43,909 nucleotides of DNA from Jiangella muralis (GTDB taxonomy: Bacteria > Actinomycetota > Actinomycetes > Jiangellales > Jiangellaceae), in the NCBI RefSeq assembly GCF_001270745.1, contig NZ_LFXL01000052.1:1-43909 (forward strand), written 5' to 3'. Under the pieces are notes generated by a model that was not told the origin of the DNA, ran no database searches, and saw only the letters and a list, made by a program, of their open reading frames with translations. A program made the translations under genes and the position numbers. This document shows positions 1,265-43,909 of the stretch, one piece after another. Numbering within the stretch: position 1 is the first letter of the stretch; every line of letters begins with the position of its first letter.

Positions 1265-1320
1265 CCTTGATCATCAACCGTTGGCGACGCCATCGTGTCG
1301 CCAACGGTTGATGATCAAGG
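1265..1320. repeat. TGATCATCAACC palindrome, copy 1
   Basis: Two perfect 24-nt arms (1265-1288 and 1297-1320) flank an 8-nt loop. The outer part TGATCATCAACC is shared with the palindromes at 16306, 17356 and 43811, while the inner part (GTTGGCGAC) is specific to this copy. It lies between two minus-strand genes and could terminate transcription, although no T-run follows. Confidence 0.8.
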
Positions 1321-9769: not shown

Positions 9770-9823
9770 CGGCCACGGGTACGGGCTGCTCGCGGCGCAC
9801 GTTCGCCGCTTGGCGGCGGTGGG

Positions 9824-9956
9824 CCGTCCTCCTGCTGCCCATTCTCTTGGCCGCGGCACCGCGCCTCAAGCGGAGCCGAACGGCGCTTCGCGCGAACGCG
9901 GCACCGCTTGACCCGCGGCCCCGCGGCCTAAGAACTGGCAGCTATCAGGGGGACGG
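9824..9956. repeat. Long hairpin repeat, copy 3
   Basis: The edges CCGTCCTCCTGCTGCCC and GGCAGCTATCAGGGGGACGG pair, as do GCGCCTCAAGCGG and CCGCTTGACCCGCGG inside. It is highly similar to copy 1, including the sequence that follows (AAGTGCGGGCACAGCCCGCC versus AAGTGCGGGCAGAGCCCGCC). The copy lies alone between genes, so the unit can exist outside the composite at 22-811. Confidence 0.65.
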
Positions 9957-10265
9957 GGGAAGTGCGGGCACAGCCCGCCCGTGCACCGTTCGCCTGGCGG
10001 CCACTTCACCCGCCGTAGCACCGGCTGGGGATCGGGGTCGGTGAACGTTGCGCCGGGGCTGGCTGTGACCGCTTGAACCGCGGCTCCGCGGCCCCGGGCG
10101 CTGTTGTCAGCCGCCGTCGGAGATGACGATGTGGGCGTCGCCGAGCGTGCCGATGGGGGCACTCCGGCCGGGCCGGGCGTGGGCCGGCGCGGTGGCGGCA
10201 TCGTCGTCACGGTGCCGGGACGATCAGGTGCCCCCGTACGAGCTGCCGGCCTACCGGCCGTTCGC

Positions 10266-13845: not shown

Positions 13846-15321
13846 ATGAACGCGAGTGACCTGCGAGGCCTCGCCCTCGCCACGCTGTTCCCCGGCTTCC
13901 TCGGCGCCCACGACGTGCCGCCGTGGCTGGCCGCGATGGCGGCCGAGGGGCTCGGCGGCGTCGTGCTGTTCGGCCGCAACGTCGACCCCGACCGCGGCGA
14001 CGCCGGCGTGGCCGCGCTGACCGGCGCGTTGCACGCGATCAACCCCGGCCTCATGGTCGCCATCGACGAGGAGGGCGGCGACGTCACCCGGCTCGACGTC
14101 GCGGCCGGGTCGATGCTGCCCGGCAACGCCGCGCTCGGCGCGCTGGACGACCCGGAGGCGACGGAGCGGGTGGCGGCCGAGGTGGCCGCCCGGCTGCGTG
14201 CCTGCGGTATCGACCTCAACCTCGCGCCGGTCGCCGACGTCGACTCCAACCCGTTGAACCCGGTCATCGGGGTGCGCTCGTTCGGCTTCGACCCCGACCA
14301 CGTCGCGCGGCACGTCGCCGCGTACGTCACCGGGCAGCAGGCGCAGGGCGTCGCCGCCGCGGCCAAGCACTTCCCGGGCCACGGCGGCACCAGCGAGGAC
14401 AGCCACGTCACGGTGCCGTCCATCGACGACCCGCTGGACGTCATCCAGACCCGCGACCTGCCGCCGTTCCGGGCGGCGGTGAAGGCGGACGTCAAGATCG
14501 TCATGACGGCGCACATCCGGTATCCCGCGATCGACGGCGACCGTCCGGCCACCCTGTCGCGGCCGGTCATCACCGGCATGCTCCGCGACGAATTGGGCTA
14601 CGACGGCCTGGTGATGACCGACGGCATGGACATGCACGCCATCAGCGAGACGGTCGGGCACGCCGAGGGCGCGGTGCTGGCGCTGCTGGCCGGCGTCGAC
14701 GCGCTGTGCGTCGGCGGCGAGACCGTCGGCCCCGAGACGGTCGAGGCGATGGTGGCCGCGCTGATCGACGCCGTGCGCACCGGGCGGCTGCCGGAGGAGC
14801 GGCTGGCCGAGGCGGCCGGACGGGTCGGGGCGCTGCGCGGCTGGGTGGCCGGCGCGGCGTCGTCGCCGGTGCTGTACGGGTCGGCGGCCGACGCCGCGCG
14901 GCGCGCCGTCACCGTCCACGGCAACATCACGCTCACCGCGCCGCCGCTGGTGGTCGAGCTGGACGACGACCCGTCCATCGCCGCGGGCCCGATCCCGTGG
15001 GGCGTCGGCCGGCACCTGGTCGACCGCCTGCCGGGCACCGTCCTGGCCCGGGTCACGGCGTCGACGGCGGACCTCTCCGCCGTGCTCGCCGCGTTGCCGT
15101 CGCGGCGGCTGGTGATCGGCGTGCGCGGGGTGCGGCGGCGTCCGTGGCAGGTCGCTGCGGTGGAGGCGGCCCGGGCCGCCCGGCCCGACCTCATCGTCGT
15201 CGACCACGACGTCAACCCGCTGCCGGAGGTCCTCGGCGAGCACTACCTGCTCACGCACGGCGCCGCCCGCGTCACGGCGGAGGCCGCGGCGGAACGGCTC
15301 GCGGCCGCGCTCACCCCGTAG
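13846..15321 (+). CDS. Glycoside hydrolase family 3, beta-N-acetylhexosaminidase-like
   Basis: A 491-residue enzyme without a signal peptide, so probably cytoplasmic. The NagZ-type active-site stretch KHFPGHGGTSEDSH (residues 174-187) carries the Asp-His pair that distinguishes GH3 N-acetylglucosaminidases, and MTDGMDM places the nucleophile at Asp259. A C-terminal domain follows from about residue 340. It would cleave imported GlcNAc-containing oligosaccharides or muropeptides. Position one base after the permease genes supports use on the transported sugar. A short palindrome ACCCCGTAGGGGT (15314-15326) spans the stop codon. The exact substrate is inferred. Confidence 0.88.
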   Translation: MNASDLRGLALATLFPGFLGAHDVPPWLAAMAAEGLGGVVLFGRNVDPDRGDAGVAALTGALHAINPGLMVAIDEEGGDVTRLDVAAGSMLPGNAALGALDDPEATERVAAEVAARLRACGIDLNLAPVADVDSNPLNPVIGVRSFGFDPDHVARHVAAYVTGQQAQGVAAAAKHFPGHGGTSEDSHVTVPSIDDPLDVIQTRDLPPFRAAVKADVKIVMTAHIRYPAIDGDRPATLSRPVITGMLRDELGYDGLVMTDGMDMHAISETVGHAEGAVLALLAGVDALCVGGETVGPETVEAMVAALIDAVRTGRLPEERLAEAAGRVGALRGWVAGAASSPVLYGSAADAARRAVTVHGNITLTAPPLVVELDDDPSIAAGPIPWGVGRHLVDRLPGTVLARVTASTADLSAVLAALPSRRLVIGVRGVRRRPWQVAAVEAARAARPDLIVVDHDVNPLPEVLGEHYLLTHGAARVTAEAAAERLAAALTP

Positions 15322-15393
15322 GGGTAGCGGCGGCCCACTCGACCCCTCCTACGGGGGAGGCCGGGCCGGACCCGGACCGGAAGCATCGTCGGT

Positions 15394-16311
15394 ATGACGA
15401 CACTGCGCACCCGGTCCGGGCCGGTCCGGCCTCGTCAGCTGGCCGGCGACGTCCTCGCGATCGGCCGGCCGTGGTTCTGGTTCGTCTCGCTGCTGCCGTA
15501 CTACCTGGGCGTGGTGCTGGCCACGGGCCGCATCGTGCCGCCGGTGGGCGACTGGCCGCTGCTGGCGCTCGGCGCCCTGGTGATCGGGCCGCTGGTGTGG
15601 ATCTCGGTGCTGGCCGTCAACGACGCGCACGACCTGCGCGGCGACCGCCTGAACGCGCGTAAGGCCGGGTCGCCGCTGGTCGTCGGCCGGTTGACGCCGG
15701 CGGCGGCGCAGCTGATCGCGCTGCTGGCCGGGGTGCTGGCGGTGGCCGCGGCGCTGTTCGCGGGACCGTTGTTCGCGCTGGGGACGGCGATCGTGCTGCT
15801 GGTCGGCTGGGCGTACAGCGCGCCGCCGCTGCGGCTCAAGGCCCGCCCCGGCTTCGACGTCGCCGTCAACGCGCTGGCCATCGGCGCCGCCGGGCAGCTG
15901 GCCGGTTGGTCGCTGCTGCGGCCGCTGGCGGAATTCCCGTGGCCGATGGCCGTGCTCGGGACGCTGGTCGGCGCCGCCCTGTACGTCCCGACGACCCTGG
16001 CCGACCTGGAAGCGGACCGGACGAGCGGCTACACGACGGTGGCCGTGCGGCTCGGCCCGCGGCGGGCGTACCTGCTGGGGCTCGGGCTGTGGCTGGCGGC
16101 CGGCCTCCTGTCGCTGGCGATGTCGGCGGCGGACGTGGTGATCCCGCGGTCGATGCTGCCGATGGAGATCGTGCTGGTGCCGCTGCTGGTGATCGCGTAC
16201 CGGCGGCTGGTGCGGGCCGAGCGGACCTTCCGCGGCATCGTCGCCGTCGCCGTGCTGTTCCTGGTGCCGAGCCTGACCTTCGTCCTCACCTACACCCGCA
16301 CCCTCCCATGA
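15394..16311 (+). CDS. UbiA-family prenyltransferase
   Basis: A 305-residue membrane protein with about eight helices. The first Asp-rich motif NDAHDLRGD (residues 76-84) and the second, LADLEADR, are the magnesium/diphosphate-binding sites of UbiA enzymes, which attach a polyprenyl chain to an aromatic or other acceptor. The acceptor cannot be determined; MenA-, ubiquinone- or chlorophyll-like roles and secondary metabolism are all possible. The start is ATG 15394. The stop TGA (16309-16311) is formed by the first bases of the palindrome at 16306, so the last codons CCA-TGA belong to the repeat. Confidence 0.85.
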   Translation: MTTLRTRSGPVRPRQLAGDVLAIGRPWFWFVSLLPYYLGVVLATGRIVPPVGDWPLLALGALVIGPLVWISVLAVNDAHDLRGDRLNARKAGSPLVVGRLTPAAAQLIALLAGVLAVAAALFAGPLFALGTAIVLLVGWAYSAPPLRLKARPGFDVAVNALAIGAAGQLAGWSLLRPLAEFPWPMAVLGTLVGAALYVPTTLADLEADRTSGYTTVAVRLGPRRAYLLGLGLWLAAGLLSLAMSAADVVIPRSMLPMEIVLVPLLVIAYRRLVRAERTFRGIVAVAVLFLVPSLTFVLTYTRTLP

Positions 16312-16361
16312 TCATCAACCTTTTGAGCTGTCCTGACGACGCAAAAGGTTGATGATCATGG
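16306..16361. repeat. TGATCATCAACC palindrome, copy 2 (left edge of the DUF559 unit)
   Basis: Twenty-nt arms begin CCATGATCATCAACCTTTTG and flank a 16-nt loop (AGCTGTCCTGACGACG). It lies between convergent genes and supplies the TGA stop of both (16309-16311 on plus, 16356-16358 on minus). Bases 16306-16358 are an exact reverse complement of 17356-17408, loop included. Confidence 0.85.
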
Positions 16362-17291
16362 GGCGGGGCAGCCGGGCCGGCAGGAGCGTGGGCGGCCGGT
16401 CCAGCCACGCGACTCGAGGACGCGGGCGTGTTCGGCGGCGACGGCGCAGGGGTTGGCGTAGATGTCGGCGTGGCCGTAGCGCAGCGTGGCGTGGCCGTCG
16501 ACGGTGGCGTGGTTGTCGCGGTGGTGGTCACGGAACCGGCCCTCGCCGGTGTGGCCGAGGCGTCCGTCGAGTTCCACCCGGACCTGGTACTCGGCGTAGT
16601 CGACGTCGATCCAGATCACGCGGCTGCCGGTGACGCGTTGTTGGCGGCAGCCGGTGGGCAGGCCGTGGGCGCGTTCGACCCGGTGCAGGTGGCGTAGTTC
16701 CAGCGGCGACTGGGCTCCCTCGGTGACGTCGGCGAGCATGGCTTCGGTCATGGGTCGCCAGCGGATCTTCTTGCGCCGCCCGAGCGCGTCGGCCAGTCGT
16801 TCCGGGGTGGACAGACGGCGTTGGCAGGCGGCCGTCACCCAGGTCTCGGCCTCACGCGGATGCGGCGCGACGTCGACCAGGTCCAGCACGGTCTCGTCGA
16901 GCCGGGTGCGTGGCGGGTTCGCGGCCGGGTGCCGGGTGTGCGGCAGGCGGTGCGCGTAGTGGACGCGGACGCCGTCGATCTTGGTGCGGACGTGCCGTTC
17001 GGCGGGCGCGGTGACGTGGATGACCGGACCGGCGTCGTCACACAGGCCGTCGAGGTAGGCGGCGGTGCGGTGGCTGGCCACCGCGCCCCGGCCGGCGCGC
17101 AGGATCGCCGCCCACACCTGCGCCTCGAACGGGAGTGGCCCGGTGAACGTGGCGAAGGTGTGCGCATGCACACGCTGCCAGCGGCCCGACGCCACGAGCC
17201 ATCGCAGCCGTGCGACCGTCAGCCCCGCGGCCAGCGCCTGCGCACCGCTGATCACACCCCGCTGCCGCTCCAGAACATCGTCGAGCTCCAC
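16356..17291 (-). CDS. AbiEi-like N-terminal / DUF559 C-terminal protein
   Basis: A 311-residue protein. The N-terminal part (VLERQRGVISGAQALAAGLT, then WQRVHAHTF) is the winged-helix domain seen in AbiEi-type antitoxins. The C-terminal part is DUF559, a Vsr/restriction-like nuclease fold: WIDVDYAEYQVRVELDGRLG, then FRDHHRDNHATVDGHATLRY, then the terminal HARVLESRGW region. The likely metal and active-site residues are the Asp in DVDY, the Glu in VELDG and the Arg/Asp of FRDHHRDN. The start is GTG 17291. The stop lies in the left palindrome. No toxin gene of an AbiE pair is adjacent. Its function, whether nuclease, solo antitoxin or repeat-processing enzyme, is unknown. Confidence 0.8.
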   Translation of the reverse strand: MELDDVLERQRGVISGAQALAAGLTVARLRWLVASGRWQRVHAHTFATFTGPLPFEAQVWAAILRAGRGAVASHRTAAYLDGLCDDAGPVIHVTAPAERHVRTKIDGVRVHYAHRLPHTRHPAANPPRTRLDETVLDLVDVAPHPREAETWVTAACQRRLSTPERLADALGRRKKIRWRPMTEAMLADVTEGAQSPLELRHLHRVERAHGLPTGCRQQRVTGSRVIWIDVDYAEYQVRVELDGRLGHTGEGRFRDHHRDNHATVDGHATLRYGHADIYANPCAVAAEHARVLESRGWTGRPRSCRPGCPAP

Positions 17292-17355
17292 GCCTGCCAG
17301 CCTGCGCGACCCGGGCGCGTCCCGCTAGCCCGAATCCCCGATCTGTGGATACCGG

Positions 17356-17408
17356 TGATCATCAACCTTTTGCGTCGTCAGGACAGCTCAAAAGGTTGAT
17401 GATCATGG
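17356..17408. repeat. TGATCATCAACC palindrome, copy 3 (right edge of the DUF559 unit)
   Basis: An exact inverted copy of 16306-16358. Its right arm provides the CCA-TGA end of the minus-strand reductase gene (stop 17403-17405). Its left flank is CGG rather than CCA, and this is the side that faces the 5' end of the DUF559 gene rather than a gene end. Confidence 0.85.
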
Positions 17409-18278
17409 GGAGGAGAGCTGCTCCACCAGCAGGAGCAGAGCGCCGTGGTCGAGGTCGCCGTGGCCTTGGGCGCGCAGGGCGGCCATCAGCGTCGCCGCGA
17501 GGGAGCCGGCCGGGATCGCGACCCCGGCGTCGCGGGCGGCGGCGGTGACGATGCCGAGGTCCTTGTGGTGCAGGTCGACCCGGAAGCCGGGGGTGAAGTC
17601 GTGCGCCACCATGGCCGCCGCCTTCCGGTCGAGGACGGCGCTGCCGGCCAGCCCGCCGGCCAGCACTTCGAGCGCCCGGGACCGGTCGACGCCGTGGGCG
17701 TCGAGGAAGACCAGGGCCTCGGCGACCAGCTGCAGCGTCCCGGCGACGATCAACTGGTTGGCCGCCTTGACGGTCTGGCCGGCGCCGGGCGGGCCGACGT
17801 GGACGACGGTGCGCCCGAGCGCGTCGAACACCGGCCGGGCCGCCTCGAACGCGGCGGCGTCGCCGCCCACCATGATCGACAGCGTGGCGTCGACGGCGCC
17901 CTGCTCGCCGCCGCTGACCGGGGCGTCCAGCACGCCGACACCCAGCGCCGCCCCGGCATCGGCCAGCGACCGGGCGACGTCCGGGCGGATCGTGCTCATG
18001 TCGACGACGACGGTGCCGGGCGCGAGCACGTCGAGCACCCCGCCGGCGCCCAGCAGCACGGCCTCGACATCGGGGGAGTCGGGCAGCATCGTGACGACGA
18101 CGTCCGCGCCCTCGGCCGCCGCGGCCGCCGACGCCGCACCTCGCCCACCCGCGGCGACGAGCCGCTGGACCTTCGCCGGGCTGCGGTTGAACCCGGTCAC
18201 GTCGAACCCGGCCCGCACCAGGTGCGCCGCCATCGGCCCGCCCATGACGCCCAGTCCGATGAAGCCGATGGCCGTCAT
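17403..18278 (-). CDS. Tartronate semialdehyde reductase / 3-hydroxyisobutyrate dehydrogenase-like
   Basis: A 291-residue NAD(P)-dependent beta-hydroxyacid dehydrogenase. It begins with the Rossmann motif IGFIGLGVMGGPMAAHL. The substrate-binding DAPVSGGEQGA and the catalytic-lysine region GPPGAGQTVKAANQ are present in the expected places. Paired with a hydroxypyruvate isomerase by a 4-bp overlap (18275-18278), it is best read as the enzyme reducing tartronate semialdehyde to glycerate in glyoxylate metabolism. No glyoxylate carboligase gene is in the window. The upstream isomerase gene is transcribed first. The stop codon lies in palindrome copy 3. Confidence 0.85.
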   Translation of the reverse strand: MTAIGFIGLGVMGGPMAAHLVRAGFDVTGFNRSPAKVQRLVAAGGRGAASAAAAAEGADVVVTMLPDSPDVEAVLLGAGGVLDVLAPGTVVVDMSTIRPDVARSLADAGAALGVGVLDAPVSGGEQGAVDATLSIMVGGDAAAFEAARPVFDALGRTVVHVGPPGAGQTVKAANQLIVAGTLQLVAEALVFLDAHGVDRSRALEVLAGGLAGSAVLDRKAAAMVAHDFTPGFRVDLHHKDLGIVTAAARDAGVAIPAGSLAATLMAALRAQGHGDLDHGALLLLVEQLSSP

Positions 18279-19063
18279 CGCCAGCTCCCTTCCGCGCGCC
18301 ACGCGAACGGGTCCGCGTCGCCGCTCACGTGTTCCAGTGCCATCCATCCGGCGTACCCGCCGGCGAGGAGGTCGTCGGCCCAGGCCCGCAGCGGCAGCGT
18401 CCCGGTGCCCGGCGCGCCCCGCCCTGGCGCGTCGGCCAGTTGGACGTGCGCGATGCGGTCGCGGAACCGCTTGATCGCGGCCGGGACGTCGTCGCCGTTG
18501 ACGGCCAGGTGGTAGACGTCGAGCAGCAGCCCGACGTTGGCCGCGCCGACCCGGTCGGCGGCGGCCACCGCCTGCGCCGCCGTGCGCAGCGGGTACGCGT
18601 CGATGCCACTGACCGGCTCGAGCAACACCGTCGCGCCGGCCAGCCCGGCGGCCGCGGCCGCGAGGTTGCGATCGGCGACGGCGTCCTGCTCGGCGGGGTC
18701 GTGGTCCGGCAGCCGGTTGCCGTACAGGGCGTTGAAATTCCGGCAGCCCAGCTCGGCGCCGACGTACGCTGCCACCTGAACGCCGGCCAGCAGCTCGCTC
18801 TCGCGGCCGGGCCACGACACGATGCCGCGTTCGCCGGCCGGCAGGTCGCCGGCGAACAGGTTCAGCCCGGCCAGCGCCAGCCCGGACCCCCGGACGGCGT
18901 CGACGAACGCCTCGACCTCGGCATCGCCGGGCGTCGCGGTGGCGAACGGCCACCAGAACTCGGCCGCCTCGAACCCTGCCGCGCGGACGGCGTCGAGCCG
19001 CTCGCGCAGCGGCAGGTGGGTCAGCAGGATCGAACAGTTGACGGCGAATCGGGGGTCGGGCAC
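18275..19063 (-). CDS. Hydroxypyruvate isomerase (TIM-barrel sugar isomerase)
   Basis: A 262-residue enzyme of the xylose isomerase-like TIM-barrel group, close to the Hyi length of about 260. It interconverts hydroxypyruvate and tartronate semialdehyde. The signatures are NCSILLTHLPLRERLDAVRA at the N-terminus, VLLEPVSGID (metal-ligand Glu), LLLDVYHL and HVQLADAPGRGAPGTG. The start is GTG 19063, with AACTGTTC shortly downstream encoding the typical VNCS. It is coupled to the reductase gene. The 129-bp divergent gap to the GH5-like gene should hold both promoters. Confidence 0.85.
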   Translation of the reverse strand: MPDPRFAVNCSILLTHLPLRERLDAVRAAGFEAAEFWWPFATATPGDAEVEAFVDAVRGSGLALAGLNLFAGDLPAGERGIVSWPGRESELLAGVQVAAYVGAELGCRNFNALYGNRLPDHDPAEQDAVADRNLAAAAAGLAGATVLLEPVSGIDAYPLRTAAQAVAAADRVGAANVGLLLDVYHLAVNGDDVPAAIKRFRDRIAHVQLADAPGRGAPGTGTLPLRAWADDLLAGGYAGWMALEHVSGDADPFAWRAEGSWR

Positions 19064-19192
19064 CGGCCCCACTGTAGCCGCCGCCCCAGGGCCGGGCAGG
19101 CCAAGTCCGGGCCCGGGGCACCGGACGGATCGCCGCTGGTGGCGGGTGGCCCGTAGGCTCCGGCCGTCGTCGACATTCAGGGGAGCCCGTTC

Positions 19193-20860
19193 GTGAACCG
19201 CATCGCCCGGCTGGCCATGCTGGCCGTCGTCGCCTCCGTCGTCTCCGTGACGCTGTCCGGCCCACCCGCTTCGGCTGATCCGGCCACGCCGGCCGCCGTC
19301 GAGCCGTTGCCGCGGATCGCCGCCGGGCCGGACCGGACGCTGGTGAACACCCGGACGGGCGAGCAATTCCGCCCCCGCGGCTTCAACTACGTCCGGCTGA
19401 CGCCGATGCCGTCGAATCCGGCGTCGCCGTACCACTCGACGTTCGAGCCGGGCCGGTACGACCCCGCCCGTGCGGACGCCGCGCTGGCCGAGCTCACGAT
19501 GAAGGGCTACGACACGGTCCGGGTGTTCGTCGATCCCGGCGACGGCCAGGACAACCTGATCGGCAAGCCGCACGGACTGGGCCGAGGCGACGCGGACAAG
19601 AGCCCGGCCAACGCCGCCTACCTCGACAACCTGGCCGACTTCGTCCGGCGCGCCGCGAGCTACGGCGTCTACGTGCTGCCGTCGATGGACGTGTTCCCGC
19701 AGAACGGCTACTACCGCGACCTCATCGGGAACAGTCCGCGGCCGGTGAACGTCGAGGGCCGGAACCGGTCCTACATGTACGAGGGGTACATCCGGGCGAA
19801 GGAGGAGTACCTCCGCGTCTTCACCAAGGAGATGAAGGCCCGCCTCGGCGACCTGATGAGCACGTTCCTCGCACTCCAGCTGGACAACGAGGCCTACCTC
19901 AAGTTCACCGAGGCGCCGTTCCACCAGTTCTCCGGGACGGTGACGGTGGCGGGCCGCAGCTACGACATGGCCGTCGCGGCGCAGCGGCAGGCGGCCGCCG
20001 ACAACGCGTTCATCGCCTACGCCGACCGCGGGGTAGCCGCCGTCAAGGCCGTCGACCCGGAGCTCATGGTCACCATGGGCGCCTTCACCAACCTGGCGGT
20101 CAACGGCCGGACCTTCGACGGGCTGTCCGGCCGCTGCGCCGGCGGCGTGGCGTGCACCGATCCTCGCTACCCGGTCCGCGTCTCCGCCGTCACCCGCGAG
20201 TCCGGCCTCGACTTCTTCGACATCCACACCTACCTCGCCGCGGGCCGCACGCTGGCGGCGTCGCTGGGCTCGATGGAGTGGCCGAAGGTGGTCGGTCCGG
20301 TGATCAACGGCGAGTTCGGCACCGAGCGCAAGTGGTTCGCCGGCATCGCCCCGGCCCGCGACGCGCTGGTGGCGCACCAGGTCGGCAGCTGCGACTACGG
20401 GATCTCCGGCTGGCTGTACTGGACCTGGGACACCACCGAGGACGCCACCCAGCGGAAGTTCTTCAGCGGTGTCGAAGCCGGCGGCGTCATCGCGGCGGGA
20501 CTCGCGCCGCGGTACCGGCCGAACCCGTGCAGCACGACCGTGAGCCGGACCGAGTCGATGACGGTGTTCCCGCTGTCCGCGGCCGAACGCGTCAAGGCGC
20601 GGCCTACGTTCAGCGGCAGCGCCGGCGCCGGGCTCGTCACGCTCACCGTCGGCGGCGAGGAGTACGGCCGCACCGACCAGGGCGGGTGGCGGTGGCAGCT
20701 GGTGCCGACCCGGGACCTGCCGGTCGGCGTGCCGTTCGACGCGGTGTTCCGCCGCTACGTCGACGGCCGGCTGTACGACCGCGTCACCGTGCAGAACATC
20801 GTGCTCGGTCAGGCGGCGGCCGCCACGGGAGCCTCCTGCGACCGGAACTGCGTCCGGTAG
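19193..20860 (+). CDS. Secreted GH5-like (cellulase-fold) hydrolase
   Basis: A 555-residue exported protein. The signal peptide ends at PASA (cleavage after about residue 28). The (beta/alpha)8 domain carries the acid/base Glu233 in LQLDNEAYL and the probable nucleophile Glu374 in VINGEFGTE. FFDIHTYLA and WLYWTWDTT are typical of the clan A fold. About 120 C-terminal residues (from around 445) form an extra beta-rich domain. The start is GTG 19193 with GGGAG upstream. The polysaccharide substrate, such as mannan, glucan or a glycoside, cannot be told. Its 3' end overlaps the convergent ABC transporter gene by 52 bp. Confidence 0.8.
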   Translation: MNRIARLAMLAVVASVVSVTLSGPPASADPATPAAVEPLPRIAAGPDRTLVNTRTGEQFRPRGFNYVRLTPMPSNPASPYHSTFEPGRYDPARADAALAELTMKGYDTVRVFVDPGDGQDNLIGKPHGLGRGDADKSPANAAYLDNLADFVRRAASYGVYVLPSMDVFPQNGYYRDLIGNSPRPVNVEGRNRSYMYEGYIRAKEEYLRVFTKEMKARLGDLMSTFLALQLDNEAYLKFTEAPFHQFSGTVTVAGRSYDMAVAAQRQAAADNAFIAYADRGVAAVKAVDPELMVTMGAFTNLAVNGRTFDGLSGRCAGGVACTDPRYPVRVSAVTRESGLDFFDIHTYLAAGRTLAASLGSMEWPKVVGPVINGEFGTERKWFAGIAPARDALVAHQVGSCDYGISGWLYWTWDTTEDATQRKFFSGVEAGGVIAAGLAPRYRPNPCSTTVSRTESMTVFPLSAAERVKARPTFSGSAGAGLVTLTVGGEEYGRTDQGGWRWQLVPTRDLPVGVPFDAVFRRYVDGRLYDRVTVQNIVLGQAAAATGASCDRNCVR

Positions 20861-43795: not shown

Positions 43796-43810
43796 CCCGC
43801 CCCCGTTCCA

Positions 43811-43859
43811 TGATCATCAACCTTCTATGTCGCGATAGCAGCCCAGAAGGTTGATGATC
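43811..43859. repeat. TGATCATCAACC palindrome, copy 4
   Basis: The arms TGATCATCAACCTTCT and AGAAGGTTGATGATC flank an 18-nt interior (ATGTCGCGATAGCAGCCC). The outer 12 bases are the same as in copies 1-3, and CCA precedes the TGATCA as at 16306. It follows the thioesterase gene and may terminate it. The last 50 bases of the window hold nothing I can identify. Confidence 0.75.
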
Positions 43860-43909
43860 TCTCTGTCAAGATCGTGGGTGCCGGGGTGCTGCTCGACGGG
43901 GTGGTGTCC

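Follow-up and report, generated by a model that had tools for sequence, protein, structure and literature searches.

In a 43,909-nt stretch of the Jiangella muralis genome (contig NZ_LFXL01000052.1, positions 1 to 43,909; hereafter the window), a gene for a putative sequence-reading nuclease is bracketed by two inverted copies of a matched palindrome, forming a 1.1-kb unit, and about 100 further palindromes, belonging to several types and scattered over the chromosome, would be part of the same system. Its layout, which recurs in other soil actinobacteria, recalls the REPtron, in which a RAYT transposase gene lies between two repetitive extragenic palindromes (REPs). We lean, somewhat beyond an even chance, towards a REP/REPtron-like system that is run by an unrelated enzyme and in which the nuclease drives the palindromes. 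Judged from sequence, the layout of the unit and the match of palindrome arm to gene lineage (rather than to location) are well supported, and homing of the unit is plausible. An earlier reading of the window's letters (the sequence-only reading) had proposed a REP-family architecture with a different enzyme, and this proposal is supported by palindrome-flanked genes, lineage-specific arms and a copy-number link in two arm types.

A nuclease-like gene between inverted palindromes

The arms of the window unit (16305-16358 and 17356-17409, 54 nt each, with a spacing of 997 nt) form an inverted repeat that is 100% complementary, loop included, and each of them, taken alone as a single strand of DNA, folds into a hairpin (z = -9.9 and -7.1 relative to shuffles). 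These flanking copies are inverted and, at the same time, near-direct repeats of each other; they enclose a single gene (16356-17291, minus strand, 311 aa). In the first copy, the outer TGA triplets serve as stop codons, one for the nuclease gene and the other for a neighbouring UbiA-type gene. Both the perfect hairpin termini and the solitary gene had been claimed in the sequence-only reading, as had two further palindromes (near 1265 and 43811), and all of them are present, the former palindrome being near perfect and the latter imperfect at its right end.

The window protein matches the Pfam family AbiEi_4 above its cut-off (31.7 bits versus 25) and DUF559 below it (17.3 bits versus 20.6; E 0.0045), while PADLOC assigns its N-terminus to AbiEi. 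Because the DUF559 match is below the Pfam cut-off, the nuclease call leans also on a structure model, in which the N-terminal ~190 residues appear AbiEi-like and the C-terminal part takes a Vsr-like nuclease fold (with middling Z). By this model the protein would consist of an AbiEi-like part joined to a Vsr-like nuclease fold, much as had been guessed from its translation (a Vsr-like DUF559 protein with an AbiEi winged helix). The nuclease residues are invariant across 30 proteins, and both the modelled fold and conserved acidic residues place the protein in the Vsr/DUF559 nuclease superfamily. The winged helix covaries with the palindrome arm and the nuclease part does not (one pair, L080/L092, was omitted from this correlation as 'same site'). 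No Y1 (HUH) tyrosine transposase was seen among the Pfam matches of the window protein (AbiEi_4 and, weakly, DUF559), the genomes themselves not having been searched for Y1. No homologue was found in the plasmid collection, and the phage collection returned two matches (31-36% identity) in unannotated gut records.

Ten homologues, query included, were recovered from the same genome at E 0.001. The six close ones (62-100% identity) have palindromes or their remnants at the flanks, with differing arms: CAACCTT (window), CAAAGAA (L010), CGGCGATCGACC (L011), CGGCGATC.CTGG (L012), CAACCGGTGGCGAC (L013) and GTTCCCTCGCGG (L014); the four distant ones (L312-L315) show a hairpin on one or both sides. 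Flanking palindromes are usual for such genes, contrary to the refuting case (DUF559 genes rarely flanked) named with the original claim. Among family units with full flanks, a hairpin was found on at least one side in 53/56 and on both in 38/56, against 9/336 random windows from the same loci. Outside the family the set was assembled from the best 80 of 294 loci (46 kept after removal of family rows and 4 duplicates) plus 7 more, that is 53 loci, 48 of them with full flanks; here hairpins stood on at least one side in 35/48, on both in 12 and on neither in 13 (control windows 5/288). In 27 of these 48 genes, left and right flanks matched each other better than did 99% of mismatched pairs, a statistic that is uninformative within the family (0/56 beyond this 99th percentile) because orthologous flanks match across loci, and for which a comparison of arms was substituted there. 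The outside genera with flanking hairpins include Planosporangium, Virgisporangium, Dactylosporangium and Actinomadura; no flanking hairpin was detected at the genes of Actinopolymorpha (two), Actinoallomurus, Trebonia kvetii and Nakamurella. A 57-nt palindrome type (GGAGAAATCGGGG and variants) occurs in genome G011 as two pairs, the members of each ~1 kb apart. Inside each pair lies a distant homologue (profile E 5.7e-15 and 1.6e-12) that scores above the cut-off for DUF559 and just below that for MTES_1575.

Palindrome types, gene lineages and occupied sites

The genome that contains the window (7.27 Mb, 76 contigs) holds 65 forward and 48 reverse occurrences of TGATCATCAACC and 106 copies of the pattern TGATCAT-N25..45-ATGATCA, with zero hits for either reversed control. 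Several arm types occur side by side (among the first 100 of the 106 pattern rows), and the core measures 50 nt in 81 and 49 nt in 22 of the 110 palindromes in the first set of loci. Since C (195), C (200) and A (164) dominate the 218 end readings outside the core, giving symmetric ends (CCA followed by TGATCAT), the element reads CCATGATCAT ... ATGATCATGG. The central four bases are CATG, CATA, CAGG, CATC or GATA (strands collapsed) in 67 of 104 distinct 50-nt palindromes, and as they recur across arm types the loop may be recognised too. A separate observation concerns genome G009, where a 1.6-kb element with CAATGCCGTTAAGTTAGGGCGG ends lies, ~99% identical, in the loops of unit palindromes at three places (L097, L098, L099), two copies having direct repeats of ~10 nt; it looks like an insertion sequence (IS) that targets the unit palindromes.

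The number of palindromes follows the presence of the gene in the two arm types that were counted across 12 genomes of the genus. Arms of the CAATGATCC type gave 5, 35, 25 and 20 hits in the four genomes with the corresponding gene, and among the eight without it none in six and 1 in another (the eighth, G001, is taken up below). For GTTCCCT the eight genomes with the gene gave 13, 12, 6, 35, 2, 15, 7 and 25 hits (the 2 being the flanks of G004's own unit, and the G001 gene having an internal stop) and the four without it 0, 0, 3 and 6. The general pattern was present in 22/22 genomes of the family (1 to 214 sites, no control hits) and in 17/38 others (1 to 13 sites, a control hit in three); one of the latter, G026 (13 sites), carries a gene of 55% identity that has one of the genome's own palindrome types at its flanks. 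The expectation that palindrome number would track the gene stands, with exceptions, for the two counted types and is not borne out in four of the 22 family genomes (G012, G014, G016 and G018).

The identity of the arms follows the gene and not the place. In the 43 of 58 family units with both flanks readable, arm identity was 0.95 within a unit and 0.45 between lineages. The units occupy a few conserved sites, and the protein tree clusters them across sites. With clades assigned by hand from this tree and 41 of 45 clade units compared (four lacked readable arms), mean arm identity within a clade was 0.96 at the same site (52 pairs) and 0.93 at another site (26 pairs), versus 0.54 (42 pairs) and 0.49 (700 pairs) between clades; none of 2000 label permutations gave a contrast of clade against site as large. 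The L080 and L092 units, which stand at opposite ends of one gene block, were not counted here as sharing a site. Seven species harbour units at the UbiA site, from three lineages, two of them in the opposite orientation to the window.

Orthologous loci were found in unit, solo and empty states, as the comparison suggested with the sequence-only reading had sought, albeit with junctions blurred by divergence. The UbiA flank was located in 12/12 genomes of the genus, seven of which have the unit, while in the other five neither homologue nor palindrome occurs in the 3.8-kb locus; in two of these (G001 and G011) the UbiA frame closes with its own TAG and is followed by sequence matching the right flank of the window, ~23 bp standing in place of the unit. 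At the L078 site, the flank of which is nearly whole in nine genomes, G004 has a unit, three genomes (G010, G008, G001) a solo of the same type and five nothing. The left junction is common to G004 and G010, and the downstream sequence differs among these genomes. The L080 site is empty in 6/6 other genomes with a nearly whole flank. At L084, L102 and L011, one of the two flanking palindromes is reduced or missing. For six of seven solo palindromes compared (all but the copy at 43808), every relative that could be aligned across both flanks lacks a family palindrome in the corresponding interval, another palindrome being present there in one case; for the one at 1265..1320, five relatives show no palindrome in that interval. 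A possible target duplication (CGACCT flanking the G004 unit on either side, once in G000) has no visible equivalent at the UbiA site. We also noted that the position in G010 orthologous to one solo of G000 (L131:3396 and L133:6137, respectively) bears a different palindrome, with TGAGCACC arms.

What may move the palindromes

The sequences show the units with their private palindromes, the agreement of these with gene lineage and not with place, further copies dispersed over the chromosome, and sites that hold a unit, a solo or nothing. In the mechanism that we favour, the winged helix would read the palindrome arm and the Vsr-like domain would nick or cut the palindrome, whether in duplex, cruciform or single-strand hairpin form; break repair may then copy palindromes to new sites and turn solos into units in a homing-like manner, and recombination between the two flanking copies could invert the unit or delete the gene, leaving a solo copy. 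The fuller version of this account, to which we give slightly less than an even chance, is of a second REP system in Actinomycetota with an enzyme unrelated to RAYTs: winged-helix-addressed, Vsr-like nucleases would cut their private palindromes, home into solos and seed new ones, their address being rewritten through changes in the recognition helix.

Several observations weigh against the nuclease as driver. Cutting, binding, copying and movement of the palindromes are what we infer from sequence. G001 has 12 CAATGATCC-type hits without the gene; G012 (161 sites), G018 (72) and G016 (5) have distant homologues only; G014 (10 sites, a 75% complete genome) has no homologue at E 1e-10, nor has G050 (7 sites, outside the family) any. 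The copies in G012 are mostly of one type (GAACACT arms, first 50 sites), and those distant homologues that were inspected in G012 and G018 are accompanied by a palindrome of some other type or by none at all, never by the abundant one. Gene loss, assembly gaps or another enzyme could lie behind such palindrome-rich genomes without a close gene. Hairpins are missing, by the criterion used, at 13/48 distant and 3/56 family genes, as well as at L105 (G013), a family gene outside both counts; one pair within a clade (L074/L087) differs in its arms; and no clear target duplication accompanies the blurred junctions. Of five opened palindrome pairs 0.8-1.05 kb apart, two (both in G011) enclose a homologue; none was found inside G018 C1, G018 C2 and G012 C8, and G018 C2 encloses, by our reading of the translation, a threonine dehydratase-like open reading frame (ORF).

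The palindromes might instead be moved by some other enzyme (a RAYT, perhaps unlinked, or an IS transposase), with the nuclease gene as passenger or guard. The palindrome-rich genomes G012 and G018, which lack a close nuclease gene, would fit this; against it stand the private arms of each gene lineage and palindrome ends that are symmetric (CCA then TGATCAT on both sides) and devoid of a GTAG tag, and we hold it to be decidedly unlikely. Also unlikely, though a little less so, is that the solos are mere relics of units that inserted and lost their gene by flank recombination, the palindromes never spreading on their own: a solo and a unit of the same type do share a site in different species, and the flanking copies are both inverted and near-direct repeats, but ~100 sites face ten homologues in the J. 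muralis genome.

A different account would make the protein a regulator, the palindromes its operators, the dispersed copies its regulon and the nuclease domain secondary. It draws on the AbiEi-type winged helix, its covariation with the arm and the palindrome copy ~65 nt upstream of the start codon; nevertheless, the invariant nuclease residues of the 30 proteins, the length of the hairpins, the second copy exactly at the stop codon, solos that are absent at aligned sites in relatives, and a solo lying within an ORF leave it about as improbable as the relics. Simple bidirectional terminators that bracket the gene by chance, the alternative offered in the sequence-only reading, fit poorly and seem the most improbable. 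The hairpins are strong, three genes in the window take their stop codon from a palindrome, and 7 of 25 palindromes of the J. muralis genome lie between convergent genes (4 tandem, 3 divergent and 11 undecided, by a rough caller that was wrong on the right side of the 1265 copy). Yet no terminator-like site with a T-run occurs in 15000-18500, the 1265 copy lies between two same-strand genes and upstream of one, a solo in G018 sits within a 476-aa E2 acyltransferase ORF (between the E3-binding and catalytic domains), the arms track the nuclease lineage and not the site, and six of the seven compared solos are absent in relatives.

Relation to known systems and other features of the window

The likeness to REP/RAYT REPtrons extends from a gene between two inverted, coevolving palindromes to dispersed copies linked to it in number, since according to PMC2817692 a RAYT gene always lies between a pair of inverted REPs, coevolves with this pair and is linked to the number of REPs (see also PMC8266576). 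As with tnpA-REP, the nuclease has no homologue in the plasmid collection. PMC8266576 describes cleavage of REPs in single-stranded form by the E. coli RAYT, which requires the GTAG tag (other RAYTs being less strict), and still calls open how REPs spread. Unlike in these systems, the enzyme combines an AbiEi-like part and a Vsr-like fold in place of a Y1/HUH transposase, the palindromes are ~56 nt long, symmetric and without GTAG, the hosts are Actinomycetota with several homologues per genome, and a single site can carry inverted units and units of different lineages. The system is REPtron-like in layout and (with exceptions) in coupling, and is not a member of the REPtron family. TIRYT/TIRtrons, RAYT-like genes with long terminal inverted repeats that are described in PMC3733652 as a transposase gene between inverted repeats able to form small repeat families, share the gene between inverted repeats but have a tyrosine transposase; the enzyme here is unrelated, and each end of its unit is itself a palindrome. 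By its modelled fold, the C-terminal domain resembles Vsr/DUF559/MTES_1575 nucleases (including the homing endonuclease I-Bth0305I), from which the protein differs by its fusion to an AbiEi-like module and its tie to palindromes; the three states (unit, solo, empty) seen at a single site would be consistent with homing. The N-terminal 190 residues resemble the AbiEi antitoxin of AbiE (a type IV toxin-antitoxin system), and PADLOC's AbiEi call made this identity a candidate, but a nuclease-like domain follows and no AbiEii toxin gene lies within the window unit or as either of its neighbours, which are of UbiA and hydroxyisobutyrate dehydrogenase type, and it was set aside.

No link of DUF559/AbiEi proteins to dispersed palindromes was found among the best matches of the literature searched (without subscription journals or preprints), and the RAYT is the sole dedicated partner enzyme of REPs that we found described (PMC8266576). 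If our reading is true, the combination of palindrome and dedicated nuclease would have arisen more than once, and there would be meaning for proteins named 'type IV toxin-antitoxin system AbiEi family antitoxin domain-containing protein' as well as for many dispersed actinobacterial hairpins. The paired protein and DNA sequences form a natural series for probing the recognition code.

Table 1. Positions of the unit, its neighbours and the solo palindromes in the window
Feature	Position	Strand	Remark
Palindrome copy 1 (CCATGATCAT...ATGATCATGG)	16306..16361	.	3' end of nuclease gene
Nuclease gene, 311 aa	16356..17291	-	AbiEi-like part ~1-190 and Vsr/DUF559-like nuclease fold ~193-298 (modelled)
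Palindrome copy 2, identical to copy 1 in inverted orientation, loop included	17356..17408	.	~65 nt upstream of start codon used
UbiA prenyltransferase gene, left neighbour	15394..16311	+	stop is first TGA of palindrome copy 1
ORF, right neighbour	17403..19265	-	C-terminal half 3-hydroxyisobutyrate dehydrogenase-type; stop inside palindrome copy 2
Solo palindrome, other arm type (CAACCGTTGGCGAC)	1265..1320	.	near perfect; resembles flank of paralogue L013
Solo palindrome, window-unit arm type (CAACCTT)	43808..43863	.	right end imperfect

The window gave no Rfam match at gathering scores. At 22-810 and 9800-9977 there are repeats of 43-95 nt, both inverted and direct, that are imperfect (76-89%) and unlike the palindromes.
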